The notes below the pieces were generated by a model that did not search any database, had not been told where the DNA came from, and saw only the letters and a list, made by a program, of their open reading frames with translations. 64,000 nt of DNA, from positions 1 to 64,000 of the IMG/VR virus record IMGVR_UViG_3300008516_000190; one strand, 5' to 3'. A program made the position numbers and the translations under genes. This DNA is from a virus. Shown piece by piece: positions 1,952 through 35,021 of the stretch; positions within the stretch are counted from its first letter, which is position 1, and every line of letters begins with the position of its first letter.

Positions 1952-1961
1952 GAGGAATACA

Positions 1962-6635: not shown

Positions 6636-6811
6636 CCAAGACAGAGTTTGGAAAAGAGATAGCTGAGCTTGCTAAAGATTTATTACCGTGGATGAGAATG
6701 GTAGAACGCTTAGTGTGGGTAGAAGACGAAGAAGTTAGACCCATTATAAAAAAGCTTGAAGAGCTAGCAGGAGAAGAGGTAGAAGAGAAAGAAATATTTA
6801 ATATAACATAG
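6632..6811 (+). CDS. Very small acidic protein, unknown function
   Basis: 59 residues, MTKTEFGKEIAEL start, Glu-rich helical C-terminus. The start overlaps the preceding stop as ATGA, the usual coupling in this genome, and the stop is 9 bases before the next start. No homolog recognised. Support is the tight fit between neighbours and phage-like junctions rather than any domain. Confidence 0.6.
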   Translation: MTKTEFGKEIAELAKDLLPWMRMVERLVWVEDEEVRPIIKKLEELAGEEVEEKEIFNIT

Positions 6812-6820
6812 GATTTAAAA

Positions 6821-8014
6821 GTGAACAAGATTGGTATTAGACGAGAGAATCATCCCGGCGAGACCCGATCCCCTCTTATGCCTGCTAACGTAGAATCATT
6901 ATTGCTCGATTTTGGTATTGATGTAGAAGTACAGAAGTCAAAAGAAAGAGCGTTTAAGGATAAGGAGTATGCGCAAGTAGGAGCAAGATTGGTGAAGCAC
7001 TTAAGTCAAGATTGTGTAGTCTTTGGTATAAAAGATGTTGCTCTAAAGTTTATTCAGAAGCATTCAACTTACTTTTTCTTTTCACATACGCACTTGGCGC
7101 AAGAATGTAATCGGGCAATGTTACAAAAGTTAATGCGGTCAGGGTGTAATCTCTTTGACTATGAATTGATGACCACTGCTGCAGGCGAAAAACTTTCGAC
7201 ATTTGGCAGATTCGCTGGCATAGTGGGTATGGTAGAGGTGTTAAGACTTTTAGGTAAGCAGTTTTTAAAGGAAGATCTTTGTACACCTTTTGTGAATCTC
7301 TTTACCGCGCGGCTATATCAAAACGTTAAGCTTTTAAAACATAATCTTCAACGGCAGGTGTGTGGATCATTTCCAAGGAGTTTAACATCCTTTATAATTG
7401 GGATTGTGGGGAATGGTCGTATGGCAAAGGGCGCCTTAGAAGTGCTGAATTGTTTATCTTGTCGTTATATAAAACCTGAGGAGTTATTTGCCATCTCTGC
7501 GAAGAAACGGTTTCGAGCACAGCAGGATATCTATGTAACTCAGTTTACGAGAGAACACACAAAGGATCGAGGACTTGGCAGATTTTTACCTTACCTCACA
7601 GTTTTGATTAATGCAACATCCTGGAAACCGTGGGAACCACCAATTCTAGAAAAGTTAATGTTTCAGAATAGATTGAATTCTAGGCTTAGGATTATTGGAG
7701 ATTTTACGTGTGATATAAATGGTGGAAATAAGTTAGTAAATAGAACAACCACATTTAAAGATCCTATTTATTGGTGGAAACCAAAGAGAGCAAATGGCAA
7801 AAAGATTATGATTATGGCGATTGATAATCTACCGAGTGGGTTGGCTCGAGAGTCAAGCGAATCGTTCAGTAAGAATTTATCAGATTTCATTCCTTTGATT
7901 TATAAAACAGATTTTTATAACGACTCTCAGGTGAGTCATTTGCCGGTCTATATAAAGAATGGAATGATCCTATTCAAAGGATGCTTAACCGCCAAATTTG
8001 AATATTTACGATAA
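6821..8014 (+). CDS. Lysine-ketoglutarate reductase / saccharopine dehydrogenase-like (AlaDH/PNT superfamily)
   Basis: 397 residues from GTG, with AGGA at 6810-6813 as Shine-Dalgarno. Family signatures run the full length: IGIRREN near the N-terminus (family IxxRRE...PLxPxH), FFSHTHLAQE, a DYE...TFGRFAGIVGM block, a Rossmann-like GIVGNGRMAKGALE, CDINGG and IDNLPSGLARESSESF. These match in order the LKR domain of alpha-aminoadipic semialdehyde synthase. LKR condenses lysine and 2-oxoglutarate to saccharopine using NADPH. It is a metabolic gene not expected in a phage. Neighbours are phage-type small genes, and paralogs at 6372 and 8038 bracket it. Whether it makes saccharopine or has another imine-reducing role cannot be told. 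Confidence 0.78.
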   Translation: MNKIGIRRENHPGETRSPLMPANVESLLLDFGIDVEVQKSKERAFKDKEYAQVGARLVKHLSQDCVVFGIKDVALKFIQKHSTYFFFSHTHLAQECNRAMLQKLMRSGCNLFDYELMTTAAGEKLSTFGRFAGIVGMVEVLRLLGKQFLKEDLCTPFVNLFTARLYQNVKLLKHNLQRQVCGSFPRSLTSFIIGIVGNGRMAKGALEVLNCLSCRYIKPEELFAISAKKRFRAQQDIYVTQFTREHTKDRGLGRFLPYLTVLINATSWKPWEPPILEKLMFQNRLNSRLRIIGDFTCDINGGNKLVNRTTTFKDPIYWWKPKRANGKKIMIMAIDNLPSGLARESSESFSKNLSDFIPLIYKTDFYNDSQVSHLPVYIKNGMILFKGCLTAKFEYLR

Positions 8015-15747: not shown

Positions 15748-16149
15748 ATGAAATTCAAAAGCGCATTATCGGAAGCTACGAAAATCATCAGTGTAGATCT
15801 AGGAAGATCGGATGACCCAATGGCTAATCCGAAAGCCGGTGTGCACACCACCAAAGTCGTCCGCATGGACAAGAGCAAGGAAAGAATTATCCCGAAAATC
15901 ATGGACAAGAAAGAAATGGCCGCTATGGAATACTATGTTCCCGATTTGCCTGAGGGAGCGTGGCAAAGCATACCTAAAGAGTTCAGACGTTTTTATCATG
16001 ATTTCATGAACAGCTACCCAGAAGTTACTTTTCAACCCCATCCATATATGGCCAAATTTAGTAGTGCCGTAAAGAGAATGAAAAAGAAATATCCAGGTGT
16101 AGATTGGGACAAGATATTTCCGAAGGTGAAGCAAATAGGCAATTGGTAA
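15748..16149 (+). CDS. Unknown basic protein
   Basis: 133 residues, Lys-rich, no recognised domain. A weak AGGGTAG Shine-Dalgarno precedes the ATG. It stands alone between two short gaps, with a candidate promoter box upstream. The C-terminal part is helical and basic (VKRMKKKYPGVDWDK). Confidence 0.65.
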   Translation: MKFKSALSEATKIISVDLGRSDDPMANPKAGVHTTKVVRMDKSKERIIPKIMDKKEMAAMEYYVPDLPEGAWQSIPKEFRRFYHDFMNSYPEVTFQPHPYMAKFSSAVKRMKKKYPGVDWDKIFPKVKQIGNW

Positions 16150-20290: not shown

Positions 20291-21385
20291 GTGGCAAATC
20301 CCCAGCAAGTAAAAAAGAAACTTGATCTGGTCCTTCCTTTGGAAGGAAAGCAAACAGTCACCCCTTTTATTCATGGAGTGCCTGGTATTGGCAAGTCGGC
20401 AATCGTCAAGCAAATTGCCGAGGAACGAGGCATCCTATTTATAGACCTTAGGCTGTCACAACACGAAGCATCCGACATCAAGGGTATTCCTTACCCGGTT
20501 CCGGAAGAAAGTATCTCAAGATGGCTTCCTCCGGAGTTCCTACCTTTCAAGACAACCACAAAGTATCAGGGAACATCAGGCATCCTGTTTCTCGACGAGC
20601 TAAACAGAGCTGCACCAGATGTACTGCAAACGGTTTTCCAGCTGGTTCTTGACAGACAGGTTGGAAACCTTGAACTCGTCGACGAGTGGCACATTGTCTG
20701 TGCTGGTAACTTGGGAGCAGAAGATGGCTGTGATGTTGTTGATTTAGATCCGGCTCTCAACAACAGGTTCATTCATTTCTTCATGGATCCTGACCTGCCA
20801 AGTTGGCTAAAGTGGGCCGAAAAGAACAGCATCAATGAAGATGTTGTCGCTTTCCTTGGCGCCAAGCCAGCTTACCTGTACAAAAAAACCAAGACTAAAA
20901 GCGATGACGAGTTTCTTATTACTCCTCGTAGTTGGGAAAAGTTTTCTGACCTTATCGCGATGAATAGCGACTTGGGTATCAAAAAGGTTACCAACATCCT
21001 CGCGGCCGATATAATCTCTGACGCCGCGGTTCATTTCATGAAGTATCTGGAGGAAAAAAACCTGGTCGATCCAAAGGACATCCTCAACAAGTACGACGAG
21101 GTCAAACCGAAGCTCGAGAAGATGGCACGTGAGCAACGATATGCCGCCAACCAGGAGCTGGTTGTTACCATCAGCAAAATGAAAAAGATCATGGAGAAGC
21201 ATCTGGAAAACCTCCACCGCTACATGACAGATTACATGGAGGATGACATTCACATGGCTTTCCTCAAGGAAGTGGCCAAAAAGACCGACAGTCCAGATGG
21301 AAACCATTTCATTGACAAGTATCTCGACAAGTTTGATGACGAATCAGACAAGGTCATCGAGTTGATGTCAAAGGAGCAGAAATAA
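20291..21385 (+). CDS. MoxR-like AAA+ ATPase, second copy
   Basis: 364 residues from GTG with AGGAG 8 bases upstream. Walker A GVPGIGKS at 29-36, Walker B ILFLDELNRA near 97-106, CAGN sensor-1 segment, LNNRF arginine-finger-like end of the AAA+ core. Normal MoxR length, unlike the long copy at 1962-4274. The next gene overlaps as TAATG and encodes a fused metallopeptidase-VWA protein, the standard MoxR partner. The two MoxR proteins differ too much to be a recent duplication. Confidence 0.85.
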   Translation: MANPQQVKKKLDLVLPLEGKQTVTPFIHGVPGIGKSAIVKQIAEERGILFIDLRLSQHEASDIKGIPYPVPEESISRWLPPEFLPFKTTTKYQGTSGILFLDELNRAAPDVLQTVFQLVLDRQVGNLELVDEWHIVCAGNLGAEDGCDVVDLDPALNNRFIHFFMDPDLPSWLKWAEKNSINEDVVAFLGAKPAYLYKKTKTKSDDEFLITPRSWEKFSDLIAMNSDLGIKKVTNILAADIISDAAVHFMKYLEEKNLVDPKDILNKYDEVKPKLEKMAREQRYAANQELVVTISKMKKIMEKHLENLHRYMTDYMEDDIHMAFLKEVAKKTDSPDGNHFIDKYLDKFDDESDKVIELMSKEQK

Positions 21386-22689
21386 TGAAGCGGGCCAGAA
21401 TACCCAGGAAGATTGAAATCATTTCAACAAAGTGGGTTCAAGAGGCCCCTTTCTTCTCTGAGTTCACTCTTAGGTTTTACTATCACGAGTGCGGCCCAGG
21501 CGAATTGCCGATGCCCACAATGGGTGTTGGCGTTGAAAAGGGACGCCTGAACCTGTATTACGATAAAGAATTTGTCAATAAATGCCCGAGTGATATCCTT
21601 GAGTTTGTCATGATCCATGAGATCATGCACGTAATTTCCCTTCATACGGAGCGAGCCATGCCAGAAAAAATGGTGTGGAACATCGCAGCCGATATGATTA
21701 TCAACGATAGCATTACCACTCTCAAAATAGCCGGCCGGCCGATCAAGTGCTGGGATCAGGGAACATACTTCTCTCATGCTGTAGATGAAGGCTATCAAGG
21801 AGAAAAGATTTCTGAACCTCTGTACGAATGGTTGCTGAAAAAGTATGAGCAGTATAAACAAAAATACGGCTCGGAAATGCAGCAAGCTGGCCTTAAAGGT
21901 CCTGGTGATGGAAAAGGTGGACAGGGAGATCAAGATGGACAGGGAGATCAAGACCAAGATGGAAAAGGCAAAGGTGGTGGAGATGACGAATCTCCTCTAA
22001 AAAAGATGTTCAAGCAGATGGATGTACACGATTGGATACAGAAGCAGATGACTGAGATGGATAAAAAGGTCGTCGAAGAGATCGTCAAAAGCGCCAGGAT
22101 GCGTAGTTGGGGTTCAATGTCTGGTGAAATGGTTGAAAAACTGGATGAGCTTACCAGGGATAAAGCTCTAAACTGGAAACAGCTACTACGAAAATACACA
22201 AACAACTGGACATGGGGCAAAGGCCCGGTTCGTTTCCGAACCTGGAACAAGAGAAACCGGCGACAGCTTCCACTGCCTGGATATAAACGGCCTCACAACG
22301 AACTGGTTGTGGCTGTTGATACGTCTGGTTCCATTGACCAGGAATATTTCCAGATGTTCTTCAAAGAAATCGAAACAATAGCCAAGGACAAGGACAGGCT
22401 TACTATCCTTGAGTGTGATACTCAAATCAACAAGGTGTATTACAAATATCGTCGCGGAGATTACAAGAAGATAGAACTTCACGGTCGCGGCGGTACATCA
22501 TTCGGTCCTGTGTTTGATTGGATGAAAGAGCACAAAAAAGATAAAGCGCTTCTCGTGTATTTCACTGACCTGTGGGCTGACTGGAACTTTGAGATTCATA
22601 ACATCCGTTGTATTTGGTGCACTCCCTCGGATGGAGAAGATGCACCCAGAAACAAAGGGCTCACGGTTCATATAAAGAAAGACAAGTGA
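21385..22689 (+). CDS. DUF2201-type metallopeptidase-VWA fusion protein
   Basis: 434 residues. The N-terminal metallopeptidase domain has HEIMH at 78-82 and ADMIIND; a Gly/Asp/Gln-rich linker lies near 172-195 (GQGDQDGQGDQ); the C-terminal VWA-like domain begins with DTSGS at 312-316 and includes GRGGTSFGP and an FTDLW strand. It is the complete form of the architecture split between 4264-5010 and 845-1951. Together with the MoxR ATPase it should form an ATP-driven remodelling or proteolytic system. Its last 17 codons and the following 32 bases are duplicated 300 bases downstream. Confidence 0.83.
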   Translation: MKRARIPRKIEIISTKWVQEAPFFSEFTLRFYYHECGPGELPMPTMGVGVEKGRLNLYYDKEFVNKCPSDILEFVMIHEIMHVISLHTERAMPEKMVWNIAADMIINDSITTLKIAGRPIKCWDQGTYFSHAVDEGYQGEKISEPLYEWLLKKYEQYKQKYGSEMQQAGLKGPGDGKGGQGDQDGQGDQDQDGKGKGGGDDESPLKKMFKQMDVHDWIQKQMTEMDKKVVEEIVKSARMRSWGSMSGEMVEKLDELTRDKALNWKQLLRKYTNNWTWGKGPVRFRTWNKRNRRQLPLPGYKRPHNELVVAVDTSGSIDQEYFQMFFKEIETIAKDKDRLTILECDTQINKVYYKYRRGDYKKIELHGRGGTSFGPVFDWMKEHKKDKALLVYFTDLWADWNFEIHNIRCIWCTPSDGEDAPRNKGLTVHIKKDK

Positions 22690-22718
22690 GAAGAAATAGA
22701 AAAGTATTCGTAGCGAAG
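22631..22718 (+). repeat. Direct repeat copy 1 (88 bp, partner at 22931-23018)
   Basis: 88 bases repeated exactly 300 bases downstream with three mismatches (22634, 22659, 22663). Copy 1 spans the end of the metallopeptidase-VWA gene, its stop, and a GTGAG start that now runs into a stop after 19 codons. The gene at 22732 lies between the copies. Confidence 0.92.
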
Positions 22719-22731: not shown

Positions 22732-22989
22732 ATGAAGCGGTATAATGCAAAGATAATTTTGGGAATTGGGAATCCATATACGGATATGTATATAGCCGAT
22801 GAGGTGGATACATGGATAGCAGAAAAGATAGCCGAATTGAAATGGAAAATTCAAGATGCAGAAGGAGATAGAAGTTTACAGATGTTTCATTATGAGGAAT
22901 TTGTAACCGAACTTGAGCGGATAGTAAAGGATGTAGAAGATGCACCCAGAAACAAAGGACTCGCGGTTCATATAAAGAAAGACAAGTGA
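22732..22989 (+). CDS. Small inserted gene with borrowed C-terminus
   Basis: 85 residues preceded by GGGGGAG. The first 68 residues are unique; the last 17 (EDAPRNKGL...HIKKDK) come from the duplicated tail of the metallopeptidase-VWA gene. It appears to be a cassette inserted between that gene and the membrane protein gene at 22986, bringing a second copy of the tail so that the GTGA overlap start downstream is preserved. Function unknown. Confidence 0.62.
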   Translation: MKRYNAKIILGIGNPYTDMYIADEVDTWIAEKIAELKWKIQDAEGDRSLQMFHYEEFVTELERIVKDVEDAPRNKGLAVHIKKDK

Positions 22990-23018
22990 GAAGAAATAGA
23001 AAAGTATTCGTAGCGAAG
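22931..23018 (+). repeat. Direct repeat copy 2 (88 bp, partner at 22631-22718)
   Basis: About 96.6% identical to copy 1 (85 of 88). Here the repeat includes the end of the inserted small gene and the start of the membrane protein gene at 22986. Confidence 0.92.
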
Positions 23019-23807: not shown

Positions 23808-23958
23808 TGTTTGGTACAGAAAAGAGGTAGCCAAGCGTCTTCTTTTAGAAGAAAAAAAAGTCTCAATGGGAACTTTTATAGAAAGGTGGCTGAGAAATGA
23901 CAAAGCCCCAGTTCGCGAAATATCTTCTGACCGATCGAATAAAGAGATTGATAGCTGA
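23776..23958 (+). CDS. Very small protein with AKRLLL motif
   Basis: 60 residues, apparently from a TTG start. VWYRKEVAKRLLLEEKK near the N-terminus matches the module shared by many small genes nearby. It overlaps neighbours on both sides (32 and 62 bases). The rare start and overlaps make the exact extent uncertain. Confidence 0.42.
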   Translation: MNKIRNFDDFDVWYRKEVAKRLLLEEKKVSMGTFIERWLRNDKAPVREISSDRSNKEIDS

Positions 23959-24091
23959 ATTAAAAGACGTGGCAATCAACAGCAGCCATGTTGTTGAAGA
24001 TCACGTAAAAGCCGACAAACTGCTTCTGGAATATATTAACGAACCTGAAGTCTCATACTGGTTCGATGAGATAGATAAATGGTACGAGTGA
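23897..24091 (+). CDS. Small acidic protein with N-terminal AKYLL motif
   Basis: 64 residues, MTKPQFAKYLLTDRIKRL start; acidic helical remainder. Carries the AKxLLx module within the first 12 residues. It overlaps the previous frame by 62 bases and the next by GTGA. Function unknown. Confidence 0.52.
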   Translation: MTKPQFAKYLLTDRIKRLIAELKDVAINSSHVVEDHVKADKLLLEYINEPEVSYWFDEIDKWYE

Positions 24092-24180
24092 GCGGCAACA
24101 AGAAACTCCGACGGGATTATGCCAAGCAGCTTCTTAAAGGCGAAAAAATAGACTCGTCATATGCGAGTTTGATGGCATGA
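24088..24180 (+). CDS. Micro-protein consisting mostly of the AKQLL module
   Basis: 30 residues from GTG 24088 (GTGA overlap). RRDYAKQLLKGEK is nearly all that is present besides a short tail. Too short to trust alone; support is the repeated module, the coupled start and the coupled stop (ATGA with the next frame). Confidence 0.4.
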   Translation: MSGNKKLRRDYAKQLLKGEKIDSSYASLMA

Positions 24181-24287
24181 TACACAGAACCACGACTCAT
24201 TTGGAATCAAAACACGGTATGACTCACAAGGAGGCACTCGAAGAGGCCACACGAAGAACGAAGCACTTCTATGGCTTTACGTTCTGA
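24177..24287 (+). CDS. Micro-protein, unknown
   Basis: 36 residues, start in an ATGA overlap. An internal MTHKEALEEATRRTKHFYGF helix begins at a second ATG preceded by AAAACACGG. No module, no known family. It is the last frame before a strong promoter. Confidence 0.38.
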   Translation: MIHRTTTHLESKHGMTHKEALEEATRRTKHFYGFTF

Positions 24288-24314
24288 CAAATGAAAGTCA
24301 CACCGTTTTTTAAC

Positions 24315-24343
24315 TTTACAAACCTCCCTAACTGTGATATACT
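24315..24343 (+). promoter_or_regulatory. Sigma-70-type promoter TTTACA-N17-TATACT, leaderless geometry
   Basis: -35 TTTACA at 24315-24320, -10 TATACT at 24338-24343, spacer 17. The usual +1, seven bases after the -10, falls on 24350, the A of the downstream ATG, so the transcript should lack a 5' leader. There is no Shine-Dalgarno before that ATG. Confidence 0.72.
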
Positions 24344-24349
24344 TATATC

Positions 24350-24691
24350 ATGAAAACTTATACCAAAGAAGAAATCAAAGAGTTACTATCAAAATCAGAC
24401 AAGGCTGTTGAAAGAGGAATACTGGCCATTTACGGCAAACAAGCAGTTTCCGAGCAAGTTGCTGAATCCACTCTATATAGCAATGGGGTCGGTTTTAGTG
24501 CTTTTGATGCCAAGCGCGGCAGTTATTATGCAGAATGGCTCAAAAATGGCCGACATCTCACCAGCGAGCATATTGAAAAAGGTCGTAATCTTATAGTGAA
24601 ATACTCTAAACAGCTTGCTGACATAGCCAACGAAAAACAAATCGAAAAAAGAAACACAGCAAAATCACTTCTAGGGAGTTCCAATGAATAA
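24350..24691 (+). CDS. Unknown protein, probably translated from a leaderless mRNA
   Basis: 113 residues. The central GVGFSAFDAKRGSYYAEWL and LTSEHIEKGRNLIVKYSKQLADIAN segments recall a short domain I have seen in phage and plasmid proteins of unknown function. It ends NTAKSLLG, an echo of the AKxLL module, here at the C-terminus. First gene of a new transcription unit; a promoter lies directly upstream. Confidence 0.68.
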   Translation: MKTYTKEEIKELLSKSDKAVERGILAIYGKQAVSEQVAESTLYSNGVGFSAFDAKRGSYYAEWLKNGRHLTSEHIEKGRNLIVKYSKQLADIANEKQIEKRNTAKSLLGSSNE

Positions 24692-24869
24692 TCCTTATAT
24701 ACTACACAAACCAATGTTGGTAGATAGTGGCTGCAAGGCTTTCTGTAACTGTTACCCAAATAACTGTAAAGACTGTCTGTCTAAAGACTTGGCTCATTTG
24801 CTTTATGTCGCGGGCGCCATAAGACCTTCTGAACTCATGAATATGGGCTCTGATTACCCTGAAGCATAG
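24684..24869 (+). CDS. Small Cys-rich protein
   Basis: 61 residues with five cysteines in CKAFCNC and CKDC between about residues 17 and 31, suggesting a small zinc knuckle. Overlaps the previous gene by 8 bases. Nothing else recognised. Confidence 0.52.
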   Translation: MNNPYILHKPMLVDSGCKAFCNCYPNNCKDCLSKDLAHLLYVAGAIRPSELMNMGSDYPEA

Positions 24870-24878
24870 ATATATACA

Positions 24879-25127
24879 ATGGATTATAAGTCGGCAGAAG
24901 CCAAAAATCTTCTGTTGGGAAGAGATATTCACTCATGCGAAGGATGCCGGCATTATATTTTCACCATGGGATTGGATTACGGATTTTCTTTTTGCAAGCT
25001 TCCTGGCAGAAAAAGAATATTGCGGAAAAAGAAATACAAACGTTTGAAGTTGGAACATGCCGGGACTTGTGATGAAATCCTGAACCACGATGGGAAATGC
25101 GAATGGTTTCAGCCAAAGCAGAAATAG
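24879..25127 (+). CDS. Small zinc-ribbon-like protein with N-terminal AKNLLL module
   Basis: 82 residues; SAEAKNLLLGRDIHSCEGC at the start, then FCKLPG, a basic loop, GTCDE and GKCEWF. The conserved order CxxC...C...C...C suggests metal binding. Belongs to the AKxLLLxxxCxxC group found here and at 34.1-35.0 kb. The end overlaps the next gene by 31 bases. Confidence 0.62.
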   Translation: MDYKSAEAKNLLLGRDIHSCEGCRHYIFTMGLDYGFSFCKLPGRKRILRKKKYKRLKLEHAGTCDEILNHDGKCEWFQPKQK

Positions 25128-25342
25128 CCAAGGGGCTTTTACTTAAAAACTGTGAGACGTGTGGATGGCGAACTCGGGGGAGTATTATGGATTCCGGCTA
25201 CCCTGTTTGGTGCGTTCCAGAATACCGGGAACCAGATCGAAAGAGAACACTCGAGAGACGTGTGTCTGATGTGCCAACGACTAGAACATGCGAACACTAT
25301 AAAGAGTTAAAAGCTTTGAGGGAGGAGTTGAGTGGAACTTAA
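25097..25342 (+). CDS. Small zinc-ribbon-like protein with AKGLLL module
   Basis: 81 residues; KAEIAKGLLLKNCETCGW at the N-terminus, then WCVPEYREP and TRTCEHY. Same layout as the previous protein and the 34 kb group: module, CxxC, about 20 residues, C, about 25 residues, C. Function unknown. Confidence 0.62.
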   Translation: MRMVSAKAEIAKGLLLKNCETCGWRTRGSIMDSGYPVWCVPEYREPDRKRTLERRVSDVPTTRTCEHYKELKALREELSGT

Positions 25343-26638: not shown

Positions 26639-27727
26639 GTGATTAAAGACGAGTGTAAACCGAGGATTAAGAATATCATAGACGGAATGCCAGGCAACTG
26701 TGACGCAATATTTCTCTGGAGCGATATGATTGTAGATAAGAATCTCACGTATGTAACGGGCTTTACTTCCTCCAAAAGCGAGGGGGCTGCAGTACTCCTG
26801 GAGAAAAGCGGGAAGATTACATTATTTTCACCAAGTCGAGATCAAGAGCTAAATCGACGCCAGGCAAGCTATGACGAATTTGTAGTTTGGAGTAAAATAC
26901 AAGAGCGAGATGAAATGCTTAAGAAAATCCTCCCAAAGTTCTATAAGATAGGACTTTGCTTTGGCTCTCTTTTACACAGCTCTTATCGTACAATAGAGGA
27001 AATCTTTGTAGCTCGTAACTCAATTTTCGATGTAACGGATCTTTTTGCAAAGCGCAGAAGTATCAAATCTCCGGATGAGATAGATAAAATAAAACGCGCA
27101 TGCGAAATAGTTAGTAGACTAACTGTAATATTACCTACATTTTTACATGAGGGAATGAGCGAGATGGATTTAGCGGCCGAGGTGGAGTATCATATGAAGA
27201 AGATGGGTTCAGATGATCCTGCGTTCTCTACCATCGTGGCCTTTGAAAAGAATACCAGTGTACCTCACCACTCTTCTGGAACCACCACCCTAATGAAAGA
27301 TGATGTAGTACTCATTGATTTTGGTGCTGAGGTCGAGGGCTACAAGTCTGATATTACTCAGGTATATTTTATGGGAACTCCAGATCGATGGAAAAAACAT
27401 ATGTACAATAAAGTTCTTGAAGCGCAGCTGCTTGCCATTAGCATGATTAAACCTGGGATTAAGTCGGAAGATGTAATAAAAGAGGCGAAGAAAATAACAA
27501 CTGGATATGGGAGATATAAGAACAGCTGGATTCATGGACTTGGGCATGGTATTGGGCTTGACATTCATGACAGCCAATATCCTGACGTGTTTGAAGAAAA
27601 CATGGTTTTAACAGTAGAACCAGGTATCTATTTACCTGGTGATTATGGGGTTCGTCTTGAGGATGACATTCTTGTAACAAAGGGCGGGTGCGAGGTTCTC
27701 ACGCATACACTTAAAAAGCGCTGGTAA
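26639..27727 (+). CDS. M24-family metallopeptidase (Xaa-Pro peptidase-like)
   Basis: 362 residues from GTG with AAGGA upstream. N-terminal creatinase-like domain, then the pita-bread fold with all five metal ligands: D227, D238, H303, E327 and E341, plus H299 in the HGLGH segment. Such enzymes remove N-terminal residues, often before proline, in the cytoplasm. No signal peptide. It is followed 25 bases later by a peptide importer of the YejBEF type, suggesting breakdown of imported peptides. Base composition resembles the transporter genes rather than the phage small genes. Confidence 0.85.
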   Translation: MIKDECKPRIKNIIDGMPGNCDAIFLWSDMIVDKNLTYVTGFTSSKSEGAAVLLEKSGKITLFSPSRDQELNRRQASYDEFVVWSKIQERDEMLKKILPKFYKIGLCFGSLLHSSYRTIEEIFVARNSIFDVTDLFAKRRSIKSPDEIDKIKRACEIVSRLTVILPTFLHEGMSEMDLAAEVEYHMKKMGSDDPAFSTIVAFEKNTSVPHHSSGTTTLMKDDVVLIDFGAEVEGYKSDITQVYFMGTPDRWKKHMYNKVLEAQLLAISMIKPGIKSEDVIKEAKKITTGYGRYKNSWIHGLGHGIGLDIHDSQYPDVFEENMVLTVEPGIYLPGDYGVRLEDDILVTKGGCEVLTHTLKKRW

Positions 27728-27752
27728 ATGTAACTGACCCCTCAAGGTTATT

Positions 27753-29330
27753 ATGAGCTTACTCACTATAAAGAATCTATTTGTAAAGTTTGAGATGCCT
27801 CAACAGCGCATTGATGCTGTCCGAGGTGTCTCTTTTGACATTAAAAAAGGAGAAACTTTTGCTCTCGTAGGGGAAAGTGGAGCAGGTAAGTCGGCCACCG
27901 CTCATGCGATTATGCAACTGTTACCTGCTTATACGAGATACGATGGCTCAATAATATTAAAGAACAACAATGTTTTTGAATGTTCCGAGGAGAGATTGAG
28001 AAAGATTAGAGGAAATGATGTTTCTATAATATTCCAAGAGCCTATGACATCGCTTAATCCTCTCCATACAATCGAGAAGCAAATCGGTGAGATTATCGAT
28101 CTTCATCAAGATGTAACAGGGGGCGAAAGAAGGGCAAGAACGATCGAGTTGTTGGATCAGGTTCAGCTAGATCATGCCGAGCAGCGCTTGAGTTCATTTC
28201 CGCACCAGTTGTCTGGCGGTCAGAGACAGCGAGTTATGATAGCCTTAGCTCTCGCAAACAAGCCAGATTTATTAATAGCAGACGAACCCACAACCGCTCT
28301 GGATGTCACGATACAGCGAGAGATATTGAAGCTCATAAGAGAGCTTCGCGACAAGTTACATATGTCAATGTTGTTAATCACGCACGATCTTTATATAGTA
28401 GAAAAAATGGCTGACCGTATTGGCGTAATGAAAGATGGGGAGATTGTAGAAAGCGGGGATAATCTTAGTATTTTTAAACATCCTCAACACTCATATACAA
28501 AGTATTTGCTTGCGTCTATTCCAAAGCAAAAGCCTATAGAAACTACCAAGAAAAAACTAGTTTTAGAAACCAACGATCTTAAAGTACATTATCCTATATA
28601 TAAAGGCATGTTCAGGAAAGTAAAAGGATATGTGAAAGCTGTTGATGGAATCACGATTAAAATCAAAGAGGGAGAGACGGTCGGTTTGGTTGGAGAAAGC
28701 GGATCGGGCAAAACCTCGTTTGGGTTAGCGGTTTTGAGATTGATTTCTAGTAAAGGCCAGATCAAGTTTCAAGGCGTAGAATTAAACAATCTTCTAAGTG
28801 GAGAAATGAGACCTTACAGACAAGAAATTCAAATTGTGTTTCAAGATCCTTTCGCAAGCCTTAACCCTCGTTTAACTGTAGGCCAAATTATAGAAGAAGG
28901 ATTATCCGCTCACAACATTAAGGGTTGTTGGAATGATATGGTATGGCAAACTTTAATCAAAGTAGGCTTGGAGCCAGACATCCGAAATAGATATCCACAC
29001 GAGTTTAGTGGAGGTCAAAGACAACGCATATGTATAGCTAGAGCGCTAGTGTTAAAACCCAAACTTTTAATTCTAGATGAGCCTACATCAGCTTTGGATC
29101 GATCAATTCAAAATCAGCTGATAGATCTCTTATTAGAGTTGCAGCGCACCTATAAACTGGCATATTTATTTATAAGTCACGATCTTCGCGTTGTAAAGGC
29201 GATGAGTCATTTGATTATCGTTATTAAAGATGGTGTAGTTATGGAGGAGGGCAAGGCTGGAGAGGTCCTTGAGAAACCAAAGAGCGTATATACACAAGCT
29301 CTAGTTAAGGCTGCATTTGATATAATTTAG
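27753..29330 (+). CDS. yejF: YejF-like double ATPase of peptide/microcin C ABC importer
   Basis: 525 residues, close to E. coli YejF (529). Two complete ABC modules: Walker A GESGAGKS at 40-47 and GESGSGKT at about 313-320, signatures LSGGQRQR and FSGGQRQR, Walker B LLIADEPT and LLILDEPT, with C-terminal Dpp/Opp-type extensions after each. Drives import by hydrolysing ATP on the inner face of the inner membrane. The paired permeases YejB and YejE are at 29691 and 32067. Order here is F-B-E rather than A-B-E-F, and no binding protein YejA is in the window. Confidence 0.88.
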   Translation: MSLLTIKNLFVKFEMPQQRIDAVRGVSFDIKKGETFALVGESGAGKSATAHAIMQLLPAYTRYDGSIILKNNNVFECSEERLRKIRGNDVSIIFQEPMTSLNPLHTIEKQIGEIIDLHQDVTGGERRARTIELLDQVQLDHAEQRLSSFPHQLSGGQRQRVMIALALANKPDLLIADEPTTALDVTIQREILKLIRELRDKLHMSMLLITHDLYIVEKMADRIGVMKDGEIVESGDNLSIFKHPQHSYTKYLLASIPKQKPIETTKKKLVLETNDLKVHYPIYKGMFRKVKGYVKAVDGITIKIKEGETVGLVGESGSGKTSFGLAVLRLISSKGQIKFQGVELNNLLSGEMRPYRQEIQIVFQDPFASLNPRLTVGQIIEEGLSAHNIKGCWNDMVWQTLIKVGLEPDIRNRYPHEFSGGQRQRICIARALVLKPKLLILDEPTSALDRSIQNQLIDLLLELQRTYKLAYLFISHDLRVVKAMSHLIIVIKDGVVMEEGKAGEVLEKPKSVYTQALVKAAFDII

Positions 29331-29343
29331 GAGGTTTTTAAAA

Positions 29344-29694
29344 ATGAGTTGGTTAAAAAGTGTGTCCACAACCTTACGTTTTGTGATTATTTTTGTTATT
29401 GTGGTTCTTGTTTTTGTCGCCGTACTCTTTATCGCAAGTAGGCTTCAATTTGATCAACCAGAAATGGCACAGGCTCAAGAGGTTAGTGAGCCCATGTTAA
29501 CCGAGCCCACCGTTGTGATTGACGGAGTAGCGACTACAACTTGGATTGATATTGATGTACCATACAGGAGTGCCTCTGTTATAGAAACATGTAAATCTTG
29601 GTCGCTTGAAGATGGTGGGGTGCTGGTTGTTCGAACTAAGGACGATAGGGTTATTATAATAGGTGGGGACTTTTTAGCAAGGATTGTGAAGTGA
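29344..29694 (+). CDS. Single-pass membrane protein inserted between yejF and yejB
   Basis: 116 residues with a very strong AGGAGG 8 bases upstream. Membrane helix at about 12-33, then an exported domain of about 80 residues with a TCKSWSLEDGG segment and VVRTKDDRVIIIGGDF strands. Not part of known Yej operons. It ends in a GTGA overlap with yejB. It could be a phage accessory that modulates the transporter; function unknown. Confidence 0.68.
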   Translation: MSWLKSVSTTLRFVIIFVIVVLVFVAVLFIASRLQFDQPEMAQAQEVSEPMLTEPTVVIDGVATTTWIDIDVPYRSASVIETCKSWSLEDGGVLVVRTKDDRVIIIGGDFLARIVK

Positions 29695-30794
29695 TATCCT
29701 ATATCCTCAGACGCTTGGGTCTTATTATTCCTACACTAATTGGGATTATGATTATTAATTTTTTCATAATACAATCGGCCCCAGGTGGTCCTGTTGAAAA
29801 AACGATTGCTCGGCTCAAAGGCGTTGATGTTGCAGTTACTGAAAGAATAACGAAAGGTGGTGGTGGCGAGGTTAGTCAAACAAAAACAGACAAGCAGGTT
29901 GGGATGGAGTCAAAGTATCGAGGAGCTCAAGGATTGGATCCCGAACTGATTATGGAAATTGAAGAGATGTATGGTTTTGATAAACCACTTTATAAACGGT
30001 TTTTTATTATGATGTGGAATTACATAAGGTTTGATTTTGGAACCAGCTATTACAGAGACAGAAAAGTTCTTGATTTGGTTTTAGAGAAAATGCCAGTGTC
30101 AATCTCGTTGGGTATATGGACAACGCTATTGACTTATCTAATCTCAATTCCACTAGGCATCAAGAAAGCAATAAGAGATGGAACAAAATTCGATTTATGG
30201 AGTTCATTTGTTGTAACAATTGGTTATGCAATACCCAGTTTCTTATTTGCCATTATGTTGATAATACTCTTCTCTGGCGGGAGCTTTTTGAATATATTTC
30301 CTTTAAGAGGATTGGTCTCAGATGGGTGGGCCACCTTTTCATTTGGCATGAAGATAGCCGATTACTTTTGGCATTTGGTACTACCTATATTTGCGATGAC
30401 AATAGGCGGGTTTGCAGGCCTTACTATATTCACAAAGAACGCGTTTTTGGCTGAAATAAGCAAGCAGTATGTAATCACAGCTCAATCAAAAGGCCTCAAG
30501 CAGAAGAAAATTCTTTATGGTCACGTGTTTAGAAATGCCATGTTGATTATTATTGCCGGGTTTCCATCTGCATTTATAAGCGTTCTATTCACCGGTTCTG
30601 TTTTAATAGAAGTAATTTTCTCTCTTGATGGGCTAGGGCTCTTGGGGTTCGAGTCGGCCTTGGGCAGGGATTATGCGGTAATGTTTGCGACACTATATGT
30701 ATTTAGTCTCATGGGTTTATTTCTAAAACTAATCGGAGATCTAATGTATATGTTCATAGATCCTCGTATTGACTTTGAAACTAGAGAGGTTTGA
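29691..30794 (+). CDS. yejB: YejB-like permease of peptide/microcin C ABC importer
   Basis: 367 residues from GTG (E. coli YejB is about 364). Start YILRRLGLIIPTLIGIM, INFFIIQSAPGGPVE, the YejB-type insert before the first large loop, six membrane helices, an EAA-like loop (YVITAQSKGLKQKKILYGHVFRNA) and the end DPRIDFETREV. Inner-membrane channel half, partner of YejE. The last 16 codons are duplicated at 30952-31002 after an inserted small gene. Confidence 0.87.
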   Translation: MISYILRRLGLIIPTLIGIMIINFFIIQSAPGGPVEKTIARLKGVDVAVTERITKGGGGEVSQTKTDKQVGMESKYRGAQGLDPELIMEIEEMYGFDKPLYKRFFIMMWNYIRFDFGTSYYRDRKVLDLVLEKMPVSISLGIWTTLLTYLISIPLGIKKAIRDGTKFDLWSSFVVTIGYAIPSFLFAIMLIILFSGGSFLNIFPLRGLVSDGWATFSFGMKIADYFWHLVLPIFAMTIGGFAGLTIFTKNAFLAEISKQYVITAQSKGLKQKKILYGHVFRNAMLIIIAGFPSAFISVLFTGSVLIEVIFSLDGLGLLGFESALGRDYAVMFATLYVFSLMGLFLKLIGDLMYMFIDPRIDFETREV

Positions 30795-30952
30795 TGGAAA
30801 GATTAAAGAAAATATGGAATCGTTTGGTGAAATGTAAGCATCAGTGGAAACGTGGCATGTATTATGCTATATGGGGAGGAACTCTGCGCATAGCTATTTT
30901 TCGATGTGAGAAATGCGGTAGAGAAAAAAAAGATAGGTGGTTGTGGTTGTGA
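30794..30952 (+). CDS. Very small Cys/His protein inserted after yejB
   Basis: 52 residues starting in a TGATG overlap with the yejB stop. CKHQW near residue 14 and CEKCG near residue 38 give a C-H-C-C zinc-ribbon pattern seen in many small phage proteins. It is followed directly by a copy of the yejB tail, so it looks like an inserted cassette. Confidence 0.6.
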   Translation: MERLKKIWNRLVKCKHQWKRGMYYAIWGGTLRIAIFRCEKCGREKKDRWLWL

Positions 30953-31002
30953 TGTATATGTTCATAGATCCTCGTATTGACTTTGAAACGCGCGAGGTGT
31001 AA
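30952..31002 (+). pseudogene. Duplicate of the last 16 codons of yejB
   Basis: Encodes the same 16-residue C-terminus as yejB (MYMFIDPRIDFETREV) from an ATG overlapping the preceding stop. The DNA matches 30744-30793 except for silent changes (ACT AGA to ACG CGC, GTT to GTG) and a TAA instead of TGA stop. Silent-only divergence suggests the copy came from a different yejB allele rather than local slippage. A remnant, probably without function as a peptide. Confidence 0.78.
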
Positions 31003-31037
31003 AAAGTGAGATTAAAAATAAACCAAGGTGGTTGAAA

Positions 31038-31280
31038 ATGGAAGTGTACATAGTTATTACAGAAGATACCCATACTGATGTCTCCGTAGAAGTTTTTAAG
31101 CATCTTATTGATGCGCGTGAGCGAGTGGCTGAGATTCAAGATCTTTATGGTGACAAATATGAGTGGCAGGTGAAAGTAATTAAGGGCTGGGCCTACTATG
31201 TGAGAACATATAGCGATTGTGTTTCAATACGGATTGAAAAAAAGAAACTAAAGGAGATGCGTCATGAAAAGATTGAGTAG
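31038..31280 (+). CDS. Small unknown protein in the Yej operon
   Basis: 80 residues from ATG 31038, AAGGTGG 7 bases upstream; the frame extends to a TTG at 31032. Alternating beta/alpha pattern (VYIVITEDTHTDVSVEVFKHLIDARERVAEI). Phage-like; no family recognised. Confidence 0.6.
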   Translation: MEVYIVITEDTHTDVSVEVFKHLIDARERVAEIQDLYGDKYEWQVKVIKGWAYYVRTYSDCVSIRIEKKKLKEMRHEKIE

Positions 31281-31398
31281 GATCATAGGAAGATGGTTTA
31301 AGTACACTTTTCGGTTCCATCATGTGTACTACAAGGGTTATATGGATCGGAAAATGAGAAAGCATTGCCGGCCGTCCTATATAAATGGCGGGTATTAA
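31264..31398 (+). CDS. Very small basic aromatic protein
   Basis: 44 residues, MKRLSRIIGRWFKYTF start, rich in Arg, Lys, His and Tyr. Overlaps the previous gene by 17 bases; GGAG 8 bases upstream. An amphipathic, possibly membrane-associating peptide. Function unknown. Confidence 0.48.
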   Translation: MKRLSRIIGRWFKYTFRFHHVYYKGYMDRKMRKHCRPSYINGGY

Positions 31399-31427
31399 AA
31401 GTAAATACTTAATTAAGGAAAGTAGAG

Positions 31428-31622
31428 ATGAGTTGTAATCATATGACTAAAGAACAGCTTGAAGCAAAGATTGCTTGGAATGAGAAGTACCTGGCAGAAG
31501 GCGCACAACATATTGCCAACCTAGAAGCAATGATTGAGTGGGAAAAGTCTCATTTGACTAAGCACGCAGAGTTTCACGCAAAGAGCGTGAAACGACTTGC
31601 TGAGATAAATGAGACGTCTTAA
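31428..31622 (+). CDS. Small coiled-coil protein
   Basis: 64 residues, almost one long amphipathic helix (KEQLEAKIAWNEKYL...ANLEAMIEWEKSHLTKH). AAGGAAAG 9 bases upstream. Possibly a dimerising adaptor; no known family. Confidence 0.55.
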   Translation: MSCNHMTKEQLEAKIAWNEKYLAEGAQHIANLEAMIEWEKSHLTKHAEFHAKSVKRLAEINETS

Positions 31623-31637
31623 TAAAGGGGTCATGAC

Positions 31638-32057
31638 ATGACAAAACGCGGCCGTGATATATTATTTATCTCATTTCTTATAGGTTTTGCGGTGATTGTA
31701 GGAAGTGTGGCAAAATATCCGAACCACTTTTCATCCAAGAAGGCCTATGAGAAACAGGGCATTATGTCTCCCTTACAGATTGAATTAAGAGATTGGACCC
31801 AGGTTGGTTCGCTGGTTTCAGTTTCGTATGTTTTGACTAACAAGGGAAGCGAAGTGGTAATAGGATGGACGATGGAGTACTTGTATGTCTATATGAATAC
31901 GCAGAACAAGCAGGTAGTGCAGCATCTAAAAGTATATCACCAAGGCAATAGACGTGTTGACTCGCGCGAAGAGTATTTTGGTGTATTTGTGTTTACTGAA
32001 CATCGAGAGGTCGTGGAAATTAAAATTTGGGGAGTGACCGAAGCAGTCCTGGAATAA
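31638..32057 (+). CDS. Membrane-anchored or secreted unknown protein in the Yej operon
   Basis: 139 residues with an N-terminal signal-anchor (about 8-25) and an exported beta-rich domain with the look of an Ig-like or FxLD fold (VSVSYVLTNKGSEVVIGWTM, YFGVFVFTEHREVVEIKIWG). It lies just upstream of yejE, where a bacterial Yej operon has no such gene. It might be a periplasmic accessory of the importer in place of YejA, but it is far too small to be YejA-like. Function unknown. Confidence 0.6.
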   Translation: MTKRGRDILFISFLIGFAVIVGSVAKYPNHFSSKKAYEKQGIMSPLQIELRDWTQVGSLVSVSYVLTNKGSEVVIGWTMEYLYVYMNTQNKQVVQHLKVYHQGNRRVDSREEYFGVFVFTEHREVVEIKIWGVTEAVLE

Positions 32058-32066
32058 GGATTAGGG

Positions 32067-33095
32067 ATGAAAGAACTAAGCCTGGTAGCAAGAAGAAGAT
32101 TAGATAATTTTATAGCAAACAGAAGGGCGTACTGGTCGCTCTGGATATTCCTTTTTCTTTTTGTTTTTTCACTTTTTGCCGAGTTCATAGCAAACGATAG
32201 TCCTCTGCTTATAAGATACGCAGATCGGTTTTACTTTCCAATAACCAAAAATTATACGGAGATGGATTTCGGCGGGACATTAAACATAAAGGCAGATTAT
32301 CATGATCCATATCTTGAAGAGTTGATAAAAAACAACGGCTGGATTATCTGGCCAGCGATTAAGTATAAATTTGATACAATTGATTATATAATGACGGAAC
32401 CAGCACCAACTAAACCTTCTCTGAGACATTGGCTGGGAACCGATGACCAAGGTCATGATGTAGTCGCGCTGGTGATTTACGGTTTCAGGATATCTGTAAT
32501 TTTCGGACTTGTATTGACCACATGTAGTTCTGCTATCGGAATAATGGCAGGAGCGGTTCAGGGTTATTTTGGTGGTAGAGTTGATCTATTGATGCAAAGG
32601 TTCATTGAAATCTGGGGCTCGATACCAACATTGTTTTTGATAATAATTATTACTAGTATTATTACTCCAAACTTTGCGTTGCTGTTGTTAATCTTACTTT
32701 TGTTTTCATGGCTGTCGTTAGTTGGGGTAGTGCGCGCAGAATTTTTACGGACCCGAAATTTTGAGTATGTTAAAGCCGCAAGAGCCTTGGGTGTCAAAGA
32801 TTTTAAGATTATGTTTAAGCATATACTTCCTAACGCAATGGTTGCTACGTTAACGTTTTTGCCGTTCATTCTAAATGGTTCCATCGTCGCTCTTACTTCT
32901 CTTGATTTTCTGGGATTCGGGCTTCCAGCCGGATCTCCTTCGTTAGGGAGATTACTGGCTCAAGGAAAGGCCAATTTGCAGGCGCCTTGGTTAGGAATTA
33001 CTTCATTTGTGGTGCTTTCGGTTTTACTTTCACTTCTCATCTTTGTTGGAGAAGGCGTGAGAGATGCGTTTGATTCGCGGAAGAACTTATCATGA
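32067..33095 (+). CDS. yejE: YejE-like permease of peptide/microcin C ABC importer
   Basis: 342 residues (E. coli YejE is 341). N-terminal YWSLWIFLFLFVFSLFAEF and the YejE-specific periplasmic loop (KNYTEMDFGG, DPYLEELIKNNGW), HWLGTDDQGHDVVALVIYG, the EAA loop (YVKAARALGVKDFKIMFKHILPN) and the end EGVRDAFDSRK all fit YejE rather than generic DppC/OppC. Second half of the channel with YejB. Intact, no frameshift. Separated from yejB by 1.27 kb of small genes. Confidence 0.9.
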   Translation: MKELSLVARRRLDNFIANRRAYWSLWIFLFLFVFSLFAEFIANDSPLLIRYADRFYFPITKNYTEMDFGGTLNIKADYHDPYLEELIKNNGWIIWPAIKYKFDTIDYIMTEPAPTKPSLRHWLGTDDQGHDVVALVIYGFRISVIFGLVLTTCSSAIGIMAGAVQGYFGGRVDLLMQRFIEIWGSIPTLFLIIIITSIITPNFALLLLILLLFSWLSLVGVVRAEFLRTRNFEYVKAARALGVKDFKIMFKHILPNAMVATLTFLPFILNGSIVALTSLDFLGFGLPAGSPSLGRLLAQGKANLQAPWLGITSFVVLSVLLSLLIFVGEGVRDAFDSRKNLS

Positions 33096-33531: not shown

Positions 33532-34114
33532 TGTTGACGTAGAAGCAGACGGTCCCATACCTGGTCCTAACTCTATGTTGAGCATTGCGGCCGCGGCATT
33601 TGACCGTGAAGGAAACATGGTAGGAACATTTGAAGCTAATCTCAAGGAACTTCCGGATGCAGAGCAGGATCCTAATACCATGAAGTTCTGGAGTCGCAAC
33701 AAAGAGGCGTGGGATGAATGCCGAAAGAATCCCGGAGATCCGGAAGAAGTAATGAAACGGTTTCACAAGTGGGTCACTGCAACCGCTTTGAAGTTTAACT
33801 GCAAACCCGTGCTCGTTGCTTTTCCCGCAGGTTTTGATTTCACTTTTGTATACTGGTATCTCATAAGATTCATGAAGCATTCGCCATTTTCGTTTTCTGC
33901 GCTGGACATGAAAACTTTTGCAATGTTTTTGATAAATTGCGAGTACCGAAAAGTAACAAAAGCCAGGATGCCAGGCCGGTGGATGAATACGGCACACAAG
34001 CACACTCACAAGGCTATTGATGATGCTATTGAACAAGGACACATATTCATAAACATGATACGCGAATACAGGTCCTTTATCAGTATGCTTTCTAATCCTG
34101 AAACTATGCCATGA
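33515..34114 (+). CDS. DEDDh-type 3'-5' exonuclease
   Basis: 199 residues. Exo I D8-V-E10 (FSVDVEADG), Exo II D108 (AFPAGFDFTF), Exo III H165 and D169 (HKAID). The complete DEDDh set suggests an active RNase T/DnaQ/oligoribonuclease-like enzyme that trims RNA or DNA 3' ends with two metal ions. Single domain, no polymerase. In the phage it may act on tRNA ends, RNA fragments or proofreading; note the CCA-adding enzyme 0.9 kb downstream. Confidence 0.82.
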   Translation: MEMYFSVDVEADGPIPGPNSMLSIAAAAFDREGNMVGTFEANLKELPDAEQDPNTMKFWSRNKEAWDECRKNPGDPEEVMKRFHKWVTATALKFNCKPVLVAFPAGFDFTFVYWYLIRFMKHSPFSFSALDMKTFAMFLINCEYRKVTKARMPGRWMNTAHKHTHKAIDDAIEQGHIFINMIREYRSFISMLSNPETMP

Positions 34115-34314
34115 TAAGCAAGAGCGTTGTAGCTAAAAAATTATTGTTGGACAAAAACTGTTGCAAGTGCCTTTACGGATACCGACGTCTTCATCCAAAA
34201 ACACATAAATACCAATACTTATGCATGTTGCGTTCGCGGCAGAGTGGTGTAGACGAAAATATTTCCAATGATTATACATGTCGGGACTTTTACCGCGGTT
34301 ATAAAACGAAATGA
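34111..34314 (+). CDS. Small zinc-ribbon-like protein with AKKLLL module
   Basis: 67 residues, MISKSVVAKKLLLDKNCCKCLY start, then LCMLRSRQSG and YTCRDFY. Layout is module, CxxC, Cys near 37, Cys near 57. First of four adjacent genes of the same design, with overlaps of 4, 4 and 32 bases. Overlaps the exonuclease stop by ATGA. Function unknown. Confidence 0.68.
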   Translation: MISKSVVAKKLLLDKNCCKCLYGYRRLHPKTHKYQYLCMLRSRQSGVDENISNDYTCRDFYRGYKTK

Positions 34315-34538
34315 GAGATAGATTTACAAAAGAGTGCGCAAAAAAATTATTATTAGGTAAAACATGTCAGAGGTGCATACATTTTTATCATTTAGATGCA
34401 TACGGCAATAATATAGGGCATTATTGCGCGCACCCGCTTTGGAGTAACAATAAAAATCATGACTTTATTGGTAAAGTTTGTAAAATAAATGTCATGGGAA
34501 CATGTGATTTTTGGGAAGGTTCAAAACGTATAGTATGA
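34311..34538 (+). CDS. Small zinc-ribbon-like protein with AKKLLL module
   Basis: 75 residues; KECAKKLLLGKTCQRC at the N-terminus, then HYCAHP, KVCKIN and GTCDFWEG. The GTCDFW end matches GTCDE/GKCEWF of the 24879 product. ATGA overlaps both sides. Second of four tandem relatives. Confidence 0.68.
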   Translation: MRDRFTKECAKKLLLGKTCQRCIHFYHLDAYGNNIGHYCAHPLWSNNKNHDFIGKVCKINVMGTCDFWEGSKRIV

Positions 34539-34843
34539 AAAAAGCGAACGTCGCCAAAAAACTGCTATTAGATAAAGGATGTATAAATTGCCTCTATTGT
34601 ATAAAGGGCTCTTTTGAATATAAAGACTGGTATTGTCGACTTGAAGAAAGAAACACATTTTTACACGACAGCGGAATGTGTGATGTCCCAAAAGAACTGT
34701 TTTGTGAAGATTACTATCCTCATGTGAATGACGCCCATAAGCGTGATGACTTCTGGCAACATGTGGAACGTACGCATAAAAAATACATATCTCTTATGCG
34801 GAAAAAACATAATGGCAAACTGGACACGCAAGAAAAAAGCTAA
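34535..34843 (+). CDS. Small zinc-ribbon-like protein with AKKLLL module and basic tail
   Basis: 102 residues from ATG 34535 (ATGA overlap; the frame extends to 34511). ANVAKKLLLDKGCINCLYC start, WYCRLEER, a GMCDVPKELFCEDYYP segment, then a basic helical tail (KKYISLMRKKHNGK). Third of four tandem relatives. Confidence 0.65.
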   Translation: MKKANVAKKLLLDKGCINCLYCIKGSFEYKDWYCRLEERNTFLHDSGMCDVPKELFCEDYYPHVNDAHKRDDFWQHVERTHKKYISLMRKKHNGKLDTQEKS

Positions 34844-35021
34844 AATGCTTTTGATGAATAAAACATGCTTGACGTGTCGTTGGCGTGTGAATATTCCAAT
34901 TGGCACCACTTCTAAGTGTATTAACTTAAACGTGTATCGATCACCAAAGATACCCACCTGCGCGCAGTGGAAACCCGTCATTTCTTCTGGCCGATCGGCC
35001 TTTACAGGACGAGCAATATAG
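34812..35021 (+). CDS. Small zinc-ribbon-like protein with AKMLLM module
   Basis: 69 residues from ATG 34812, overlapping the previous gene by 32 bases; the frame is open to 34728. TRKKKAKMLLMNKTCLTCRW start, SKCINL and PTCAQWKP. Fourth and most divergent tandem relative. Its end overlaps the promoter of the CCA gene. Confidence 0.62.
   Translation: MANWTRKKKAKMLLMNKTCLTCRWRVNIPIGTTSKCINLNVYRSPKIPTCAQWKPVISSGRSAFTGRAI

Follow-up and report, generated by a model that had tools for sequence, protein, structure and literature searches.

A permuted YejBEF peptide-importer core beside an M24 peptidase gene in a large tailed phage

YejABEF, a peptide importer of the ATP-binding cassette (ABC) type, takes up microcin C and, tentatively, peptides of 7–13 residues (PMC10924461; this source and the two cited below are represented by excerpts). 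Its loss makes Salmonella and Brucella more sensitive to antimicrobial peptides, and import of such peptides followed by their degradation has been put forward as a hypothesis (PMC10924461). YejABEF also imports phazolicin and shields rhizobia from nodule-specific cysteine-rich (NCR) peptides (PMC10128002), and Agrobacterium YejBEF takes up muropeptides using YepA, an unlinked substrate-binding protein (SBP; PMC9790009). Here we analyse a stretch of viral DNA, the 64,000-base window formed by bases 1–64000 of the 82,129-base virus record IMGVR_UViG_3300008516_000190, in which genes for YejF, YejB, YejE and an M24-family peptidase lie together. We read these genes as an auxiliary metabolic module of a large tailed phage, derived from a donor in one order of Spirochaetota, that would import and digest peptides by way of the host's SBP, and give this reading a probability of about one half. 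The four genes are:

26639..27727, plus strand: M24 metallopeptidase with Creatinase_N, 362 residues, GTG start, Xaa-Pro dipeptidase/aminopeptidase type (Pfam, structural relative)
27753..29330, plus strand: YejF, double ABC ATPase, 525 residues (two ABC_tran stretches in Pfam, NCBIfam, tree)
29691..30794, plus strand: YejB, permease, 367 residues (NCBIfam, above cut-off)
32067..33095, plus strand: YejE, permease, 342 residues (NCBIfam, above cut-off)

The initial annotation had described an intact double ATPase with YejB- and YejE-like permeases, and three unbroken full-length open reading frames (ORFs) inside 26639–33095 bear this out. Its assignment to Yej rather than to Opp, Dpp or Nik is upheld by the NCBIfam scores, and the trees, the rows of which are Yej only, agree. 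YejB scores 523.8 bits against NF011712 (subfamily cut-off 445) and YejE 499.4 bits against NF011596 (subfamily cut-off 439), both passing; judged by these models, Yej scores of such size are not due to chance. Identities to E. coli YejB, YejE and YejF are 57, 62 and 50%, respectively. YejF is taken as an orthologue on two grounds, its grouping with the Spirochaetota order in the tree described below and the presence of two ATPase domains in one chain; both domains carry the usual motifs in the alignment. Conservation is high in all three subunits: 33 cellular sets of YejB, YejE and YejF agree at 300 alignment columns, of which the phage retains 298 (94/95 in YejB, 87/87 in YejE and 117/118 in YejF), the two changes being R265Q in YejB and M165L in YejF. 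When each of the 33 cellular rows is left out in turn, the lowest retained fraction is 0.971 and the median 0.993, which is also the value for the phage. Within the Spirochaetota order, the phage retains 585 (92.9%) of the 630 columns invariant in six sets, and the leave-one-out values of the six members themselves run from 630/638 (98.7%) down to 630/704 (89.5%). The AlphaFold model of YejB is poor (mean pLDDT 51.5).

The first of the four genes is not a transporter subunit. The whole interval 26639–33095 had been presented as an importer; the three subunits do lie within it, but its start (26639–27727) encodes the M24 peptidase. This protein exceeds the Pfam cut-offs for both Peptidase_M24 (198.6 bits, cut-off 23) and Creatinase_N (43 bits, cut-off 22), and its closest solved relative is the Xaa-Pro dipeptidase 1wy2 (E 4e-52). 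The five residues that we take to be metal-binding align with those of 1wy2 and with those of the orthologues in the Spirochaetota order, and on the two domain scores and these aligned residues we place the protein among the M24B Xaa-Pro peptidases. The initial annotation had missed the peptidase, the permutation of the genes, their affinity to Spirochaetota and the precedent of a Dpp importer in the Fusobacterium phage FNU4.

The carrier is a large tailed phage. A second record, IMGVR_UViG_3300028837_002886 (130,931 bases), takes in all of the 82-kb record, which aligns to it in three blocks with a single mismatch, and runs 49 kb further upstream; the two are possibly non-independent. The window's record has two extra stretches relative to the second, of 112 bases (58160–58271) and 55 bases (80068–80122, equivalent to 16068–16122 of the piece L003); both sit among tail genes, and the rest of the two records is near-identical. 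The Yej block has the same layout in each and no mismatch between them. Phage genes flank it on both sides. Upstream, the second record encodes a Toprim protein, a split DNA polymerase III alpha subunit, a single-strand binding protein, a radical SAM protein, an AICARFT-like protein and a helicase, besides the kinase, GTPase and topoisomerase described below; downstream, tail genes are recognisable from 47.5 kb onward. Host-derived genes set among phage genes on either side are one mark of auxiliary metabolic genes, which this block shows; a change of host metabolism during infection, the other mark, is what we predict for it. The block had been placed in a phage structural region; it does not lie in a recognisable one, the first recognised tail gene (the tape measure) beginning at 47530, and the genes near it are instead an ATPase/phrog_1314 pair, a NUDIX protein, an RNase T-like exonuclease, a CCA nucleotidyltransferase and an NT5C nucleotidase. 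By its baseplate protein, the phage has no kin but itself in IMG/VR, and one 595-kb uncultured phage at 23% identity. The 131-kb record is probably incomplete, because it has no match to phrog_2, which we take to be the large terminase, and because no terminase, portal or major capsid family was found among the subset of ORFs scanned.

The Yej genes point to a donor, and perhaps a host, within one order of Spirochaetota. In quick single-gene trees of 51 (YejB), 49 (YejE) and 44 (YejF) rows, hand-picked plus spirochaetes, the phage groups with one Spirochaetota set with supports of 93 (unstarred), 100 (starred) and 99 (starred), respectively. A more careful concatenated tree of 34 rows (the phage, 28 hand-picked from 71 other rows and five more genomes of the order) unites the phage with six genomes of that order at 100/100; its placement as sister to the six has support of 89/84, which leaves sister and nested positions unsettled. 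YejB matches at E ≤ 1e-90 occur in 20 of 392 Spirochaetota genomes, including all eight members of the order examined, and these members give the highest identities (69–74%, the match in G063 being cut to 202 residues); YejE is found in seven of the eight (69–75%). The six operons of the order with the full set in view read A-B-E-F (yejA is cut in one).

The peptidase leads to the same order by a different route. Its whole-genome comparison covered Spirochaetota, and at E ≤ 1e-70 the 392 genomes yield six matches, all in the order of the Yej donor, so that six of its eight genomes have an orthologue (37–45% identity). Elsewhere, the best match in GenBank phage records is 33% over at least 89% of the protein, with partial matches up to 38% (20 of 26 records listed), and plasmid matches reach 31–34% among the five listed. 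As a control, the neighbouring CCA enzyme matches 385 of the 392 genomes at E ≤ 1e-30 (33–48% identity among the matches listed); three of its five best matches are members of the order, though the lead is slight (E 1e-74 to 6e-72), and no match exists in two members. The CCA enzyme thus leans weakly to the order as well, without the sharp restriction of the peptidase and the Yej genes. Another host-like gene, at 6821–8014, has a match in one of the 392 genomes, weak and outside the order. In G005, the one genome of the order in a single contig (3,530,966 bases), the M24 gene starts at 1,265,677 and yejB at 171,978, 1.09 Mb apart; G002, G018, G041, G049 and G063 carry them on separate contigs, an arrangement that linkage could also produce. 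Because its strong Spirochaetota relatives are confined to the Yej donor order and the gene lies 1.09 Mb from yej in G005, two host loci have seemingly been joined, and the simplest reading of these comparisons is that M24 and yej were drawn from separate loci and that their union in the phage is secondary.

The layout is as unusual as the composition. The phage order is M24-F-x-B-x-E, all on the plus strand, against the usual cellular yejA-B-E-F, and small ORFs and a duplicated yejB end fill the spaces marked x:

29344..29694, plus strand: 116-residue ORF, N-terminal hydrophobic segment then a soluble part (read by eye), no Pfam family above cut-off
30744..30794, plus strand: 3′ end of yejB, first copy of a 51-base duplication (sequence comparison)
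30791..30952, plus strand: 53-residue ORF between the two copies of the yejB end (ORF list)
30952..31002, plus strand: 3′ end of yejB, second copy, the same 16 residues plus stop
31032..31622, plus strand: three small ORFs of 82, 44 and 64 residues (mechanical ORFs only)
31638..32057, plus strand: 139-residue ORF, N-terminal hydrophobic segment (read by eye), no Pfam family above cut-off

We compared gene order in 87 loci, 80 from a non-exhaustive genome scan (at least 80 loci), five from GenBank phage and plasmid records and two from IMG/VR. Where the genes stood together the order was A-B-E-F, apart from L055 and L084 (B-E-F-A) and L080, with yejE on the opposite strand; several other contigs are cut or have a subunit out of view. 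yejF precedes yejB in none of the 87, and none has an M24 gene (E ≤ 1e-8) within the stretch compared. One locus from a cellular metagenome-assembled genome, L074, has B-E-F with no yejA within 21 kb; therefore a core without an adjacent yejA also exists in cells. In the phage, gaps do not exceed 25 bases from the 340-residue ORF upstream of M24 to yejB, as far as the end of yejE the widest is 79 bases, and the 116-residue ORF and yejB, and yejB and the 53-residue ORF, overlap by four bases each. Promoter-like sites show no excess (40, against 33.9 in shuffled sequences, s.d. 5.9), and no Rfam family was found in the window or in pieces L010–L012 of the second record. The stretch from M24 to yejE may be one transcript.

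The final 16 codons of yejB and its stop reappear 208 bases further downstream, beyond the 53-residue ORF, and the two copies differ only by synonymous changes in the last codons. The duplication looks like the trace of a small insert that restored the gene end from another allele, from which we infer that a second allele of the phage yejB exists. A similar arrangement is seen at the gene 21385–22689, the 3′ end of which is duplicated over 90 bases at 96.7% identity (22629–22718 and 22929–23018) around a small ORF. That the phage joined two unlinked host loci into an import-and-digest module, leaving the SBP to a host YejA or YejA-like protein, and that the synonymous differences at the yejB ends hint at a second allele, and hence at a trait maintained in the lineage and not a one-off, is a composite proposal that we put forward tentatively, with the odds somewhat against it.

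If the genes act as a module, YejB, YejE and YejF would assemble in the host inner membrane during infection, where the host's own periplasmic YejA-type binding protein would hand peptides to the phage core. The M24 enzyme would finish the imported peptides in the cytoplasm, Xaa-Pro bonds included, and the amino acids released would feed virus protein synthesis. The phage lineage would have taken the parts of the module from two distinct host loci and then changed their order. The initial annotation had suggested reliance on a host YejA, and this is plausible: genomes of the donor order have yejA beside yejBEF, and YejBEF can use a distant SBP (PMC9790009). Since the operons of the order carry yejA, the protein would be on hand if a member of that order is the host.

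Several observations weigh against this reading. PF00496 (SBP_bac_5) has no match in the 82-kb or the 131-kb record, and an ABC importer without an SBP may fail to work. YejF, for which NF011713 is the top match among 194 families at 652.3 bits, falls under that model's equivalog cut-off of 834, and the peptidase lies under every NCBIfam equivalog cut-off (best NF040821, 185.3 against 630), so it is not a PepQ or PepP equivalog. Six small unrelated ORFs stand between yejF and yejE and separate the subunits. The codon scores of yejB (−1.176) and yejE (−1.206) are below those of all 31 other phage genes, which may reflect membrane proteins or recent arrival; those of M24 (−1.148) and yejF (−1.143) are above the lowest of the 31 (−1.162; mean −1.089, s.d. 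0.042), and the GC content at third codon positions of all four genes (0.36–0.39) is inside the range of the 31 (0.22–0.55). A comparison of 20 kb of the window with the 392 Spirochaetota genomes gave no convincing DNA match for a host; at E ≤ 0.01 it returned one match of 23–51 bases in each of 32 genomes, G049 of the donor order included, which we take as chance.

Among the alternatives, the likeliest by a small margin is that the phage encodes a complete Yej system with yejA in the unsequenced part, in which case no host SBP would be needed. The record is probably incomplete and the yej genes are already scattered and permuted, both of which speak for it; however, the other three subunits lie within 5.4 kb, and the 131 kb hold no SBP_bac_5 match. 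We regard this alternative as unlikely. The same incompleteness bears on the description of the importer as lacking YejA, which stands for the 131 kb and is not established for the whole genome. We therefore file the locus as a YejBEF core and not as YejABEF: neither record has a cognate SBP gene with the core, and the order is F-B-E instead of A-B-E-F.

A protective role is quite unlikely. Here an extra YejBEF would clear membrane-active or other antimicrobial peptides from the periplasm and the M24 enzyme would contribute to their breakdown, keeping the infected cell alive until lysis. The greater sensitivity of Salmonella and Brucella Yej mutants and the import-then-degradation hypothesis (PMC10924461, PMC10128002) agree with it, as does the pairing of importer with peptidase. 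However, import by Yej can also sensitise cells, as with microcin C and phazolicin (PMC10924461, PMC10128002), the sequence points to no single substrate, and a general Xaa-Pro peptidase fits nutrition equally. Sequence cannot separate nutrition from detoxification; we prefer nutrition, since the importer is broad and the enzyme beside it a general Xaa-Pro peptidase.

Two further alternatives appear improbable. Uptake of muropeptides freed during infection, as a form of cell-wall recycling, has a parallel in the muropeptide import by YejBEF with another SBP in Agrobacterium (PMC9790009), and the phage encodes a transglycosylase-like protein; yet YepA is reported, in the excerpted source, from Alphaproteobacteria only (PMC9790009), and the M24 partner seems unsuited to peptidoglycan peptides, which makes recycling very unlikely. 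Passive cargo, a chance capture of host genes with no role, is less probable still. In its favour, the baseplate comparison gave no sister phage in which maintenance would show, and the codon scores of yejB and yejE are low for this phage; against this stand intact frames with 298 of 300 invariant residues kept despite about 30% divergence from the nearest genomes, a permuted order with tightly spaced phage ORFs and a peptidase from a second locus.

An assembly join, a concern already raised in the initial annotation, or host DNA at a provirus border is scarcely credible: although the two records may share one project and two other IMG/VR matches (L098 and L099, below) do resemble host flanks, we reject it because the second record of the same phage crosses the block without a join and with zero mismatches, and because the gene order is not cellular, the yej genes being interspersed with small ORFs and having phage genes on both sides (polymerase and single-strand binding protein upstream, tail genes downstream).

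The two records hold further features outside the Yej locus. The DNA polymerase III alpha subunit of the second record is split in two, with some 4.9 kb between the parts (5662–6882 of piece L012 and 73–2181 of L100, both on the minus strand): the first half stops just before PDIDIDF, which we take to be a catalytic motif, and the second opens with about 80 other residues and then PDIDIDF. Also on minus strands of that record are a Tubulin/FtsZ-like GTPase (L011, 8919–9917; Pfam Tubulin E 1.7e-10, no PHROG match), a eukaryote-type topoisomerase IB (L010, 5722–7386; three Pfam domains, best E 5e-61) and a 668-residue protein with PAS, histidine kinase and receiver domains (L012, 796–2802). Two ORFs of 205 and 213 residues, L012 7402–8019 and L010 10319–10960 (both plus strand), are alike, with signal-peptide-like starts (by eye) and no Pfam family above cut-off. 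In the window, runs of small ORFs at about 23897–25342 and 34111–34981 have an AKxLLL-like start and paired cysteines in common and, by eye, seem to form a paralogous family. Two sets of an ATPase (phrog_1297) with phrog_1314 occupy 845–5010 and 20291–22689; in the former, the phrog_1314 match is divided over two ORFs that flank the ATPase.

A pattern-based scan of IMG/VR for Yej, built on an alignment, matched this phage, L098 and L099. L098 has yejABEF and a flavin mononucleotide (FMN) oxidoreductase gene beside an integrase and a Zot-domain gene, and in L099 terminase genes are followed by a yejA that is shortened and a yejB that runs off the contig; we take both as host flanks of proviruses. 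Among GenBank records, Acinetobacter "phage" MD-2021a has a Yej-like permease in a stretch that looks chromosomal where viewed, MT836541 has yejA-yejB among cellular-looking ORFs, and the viewed part of the record named Microcystis phage MaAM05 (MW495066), with pcnB, trpG, prs and a GsiC-type permease gene, looks cellular. A further "phage" record, MT835876, has a YejE-like permease (61%). In the open-licence PMC literature, we recognised no report of a phage-borne Yej system in titles and abstract starts. Among the collections searched, as far as these go, what is new is a Yej-type importer in a phage, with no SBP in 131 kb, a permuted layout and a peptidase from a second locus.

The locus suggests that a phage can alter the peptide nutrition of its host by bringing the membrane machine and leaving the binding to the host SBP, and offers a testable case of one importer shared between two genomes. 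It also ties a little-known large phage to one Spirochaetota order, and bears on whether infection alters the sensitivity of the cell to peptide antibiotics.

The closest described system is cellular YejABEF, as in E. coli and in the Spirochaetota order of G002, G005 and G041. The phage proteins are orthologous to it by tree, 57–75% identical in the permeases and 50–64% in YejF, with conserved residues kept; the cellular system has yejA and the order A-B-E-F, whereas the phage has F-B-E with six interleaved ORFs, an attached M24 gene and no yejA in 131 kb. Agrobacterium YejBEF-YepA resembles the phage locus in having a YejBEF core with an SBP encoded elsewhere, but it is bacterial, its core operon still has yejA and its substrate is muropeptide, according to the excerpted source (PMC9790009).

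As a category, phage-borne peptide importers have a precedent: Fusobacterium phage vB_FnuS_FNU4 (OQ808964; 10245–15664 of locus L157) carries, as deposited, an annotated complete DppABCDF, with a gene annotated as a DNA-ejection protein at one end and genes for a methylase and an integrase at the other. It is likewise a peptide ABC importer within a phage genome with phage genes around it; it differs in being of Dpp type, with its SBP included, in one contiguous block, with two separate ATPase genes and no annotated peptidase. Cyanophages carry PstS-type binding proteins, which are also part of a host ABC importer in a phage; there, however, the binding protein comes without the membrane subunits, the reverse of the phage described here.

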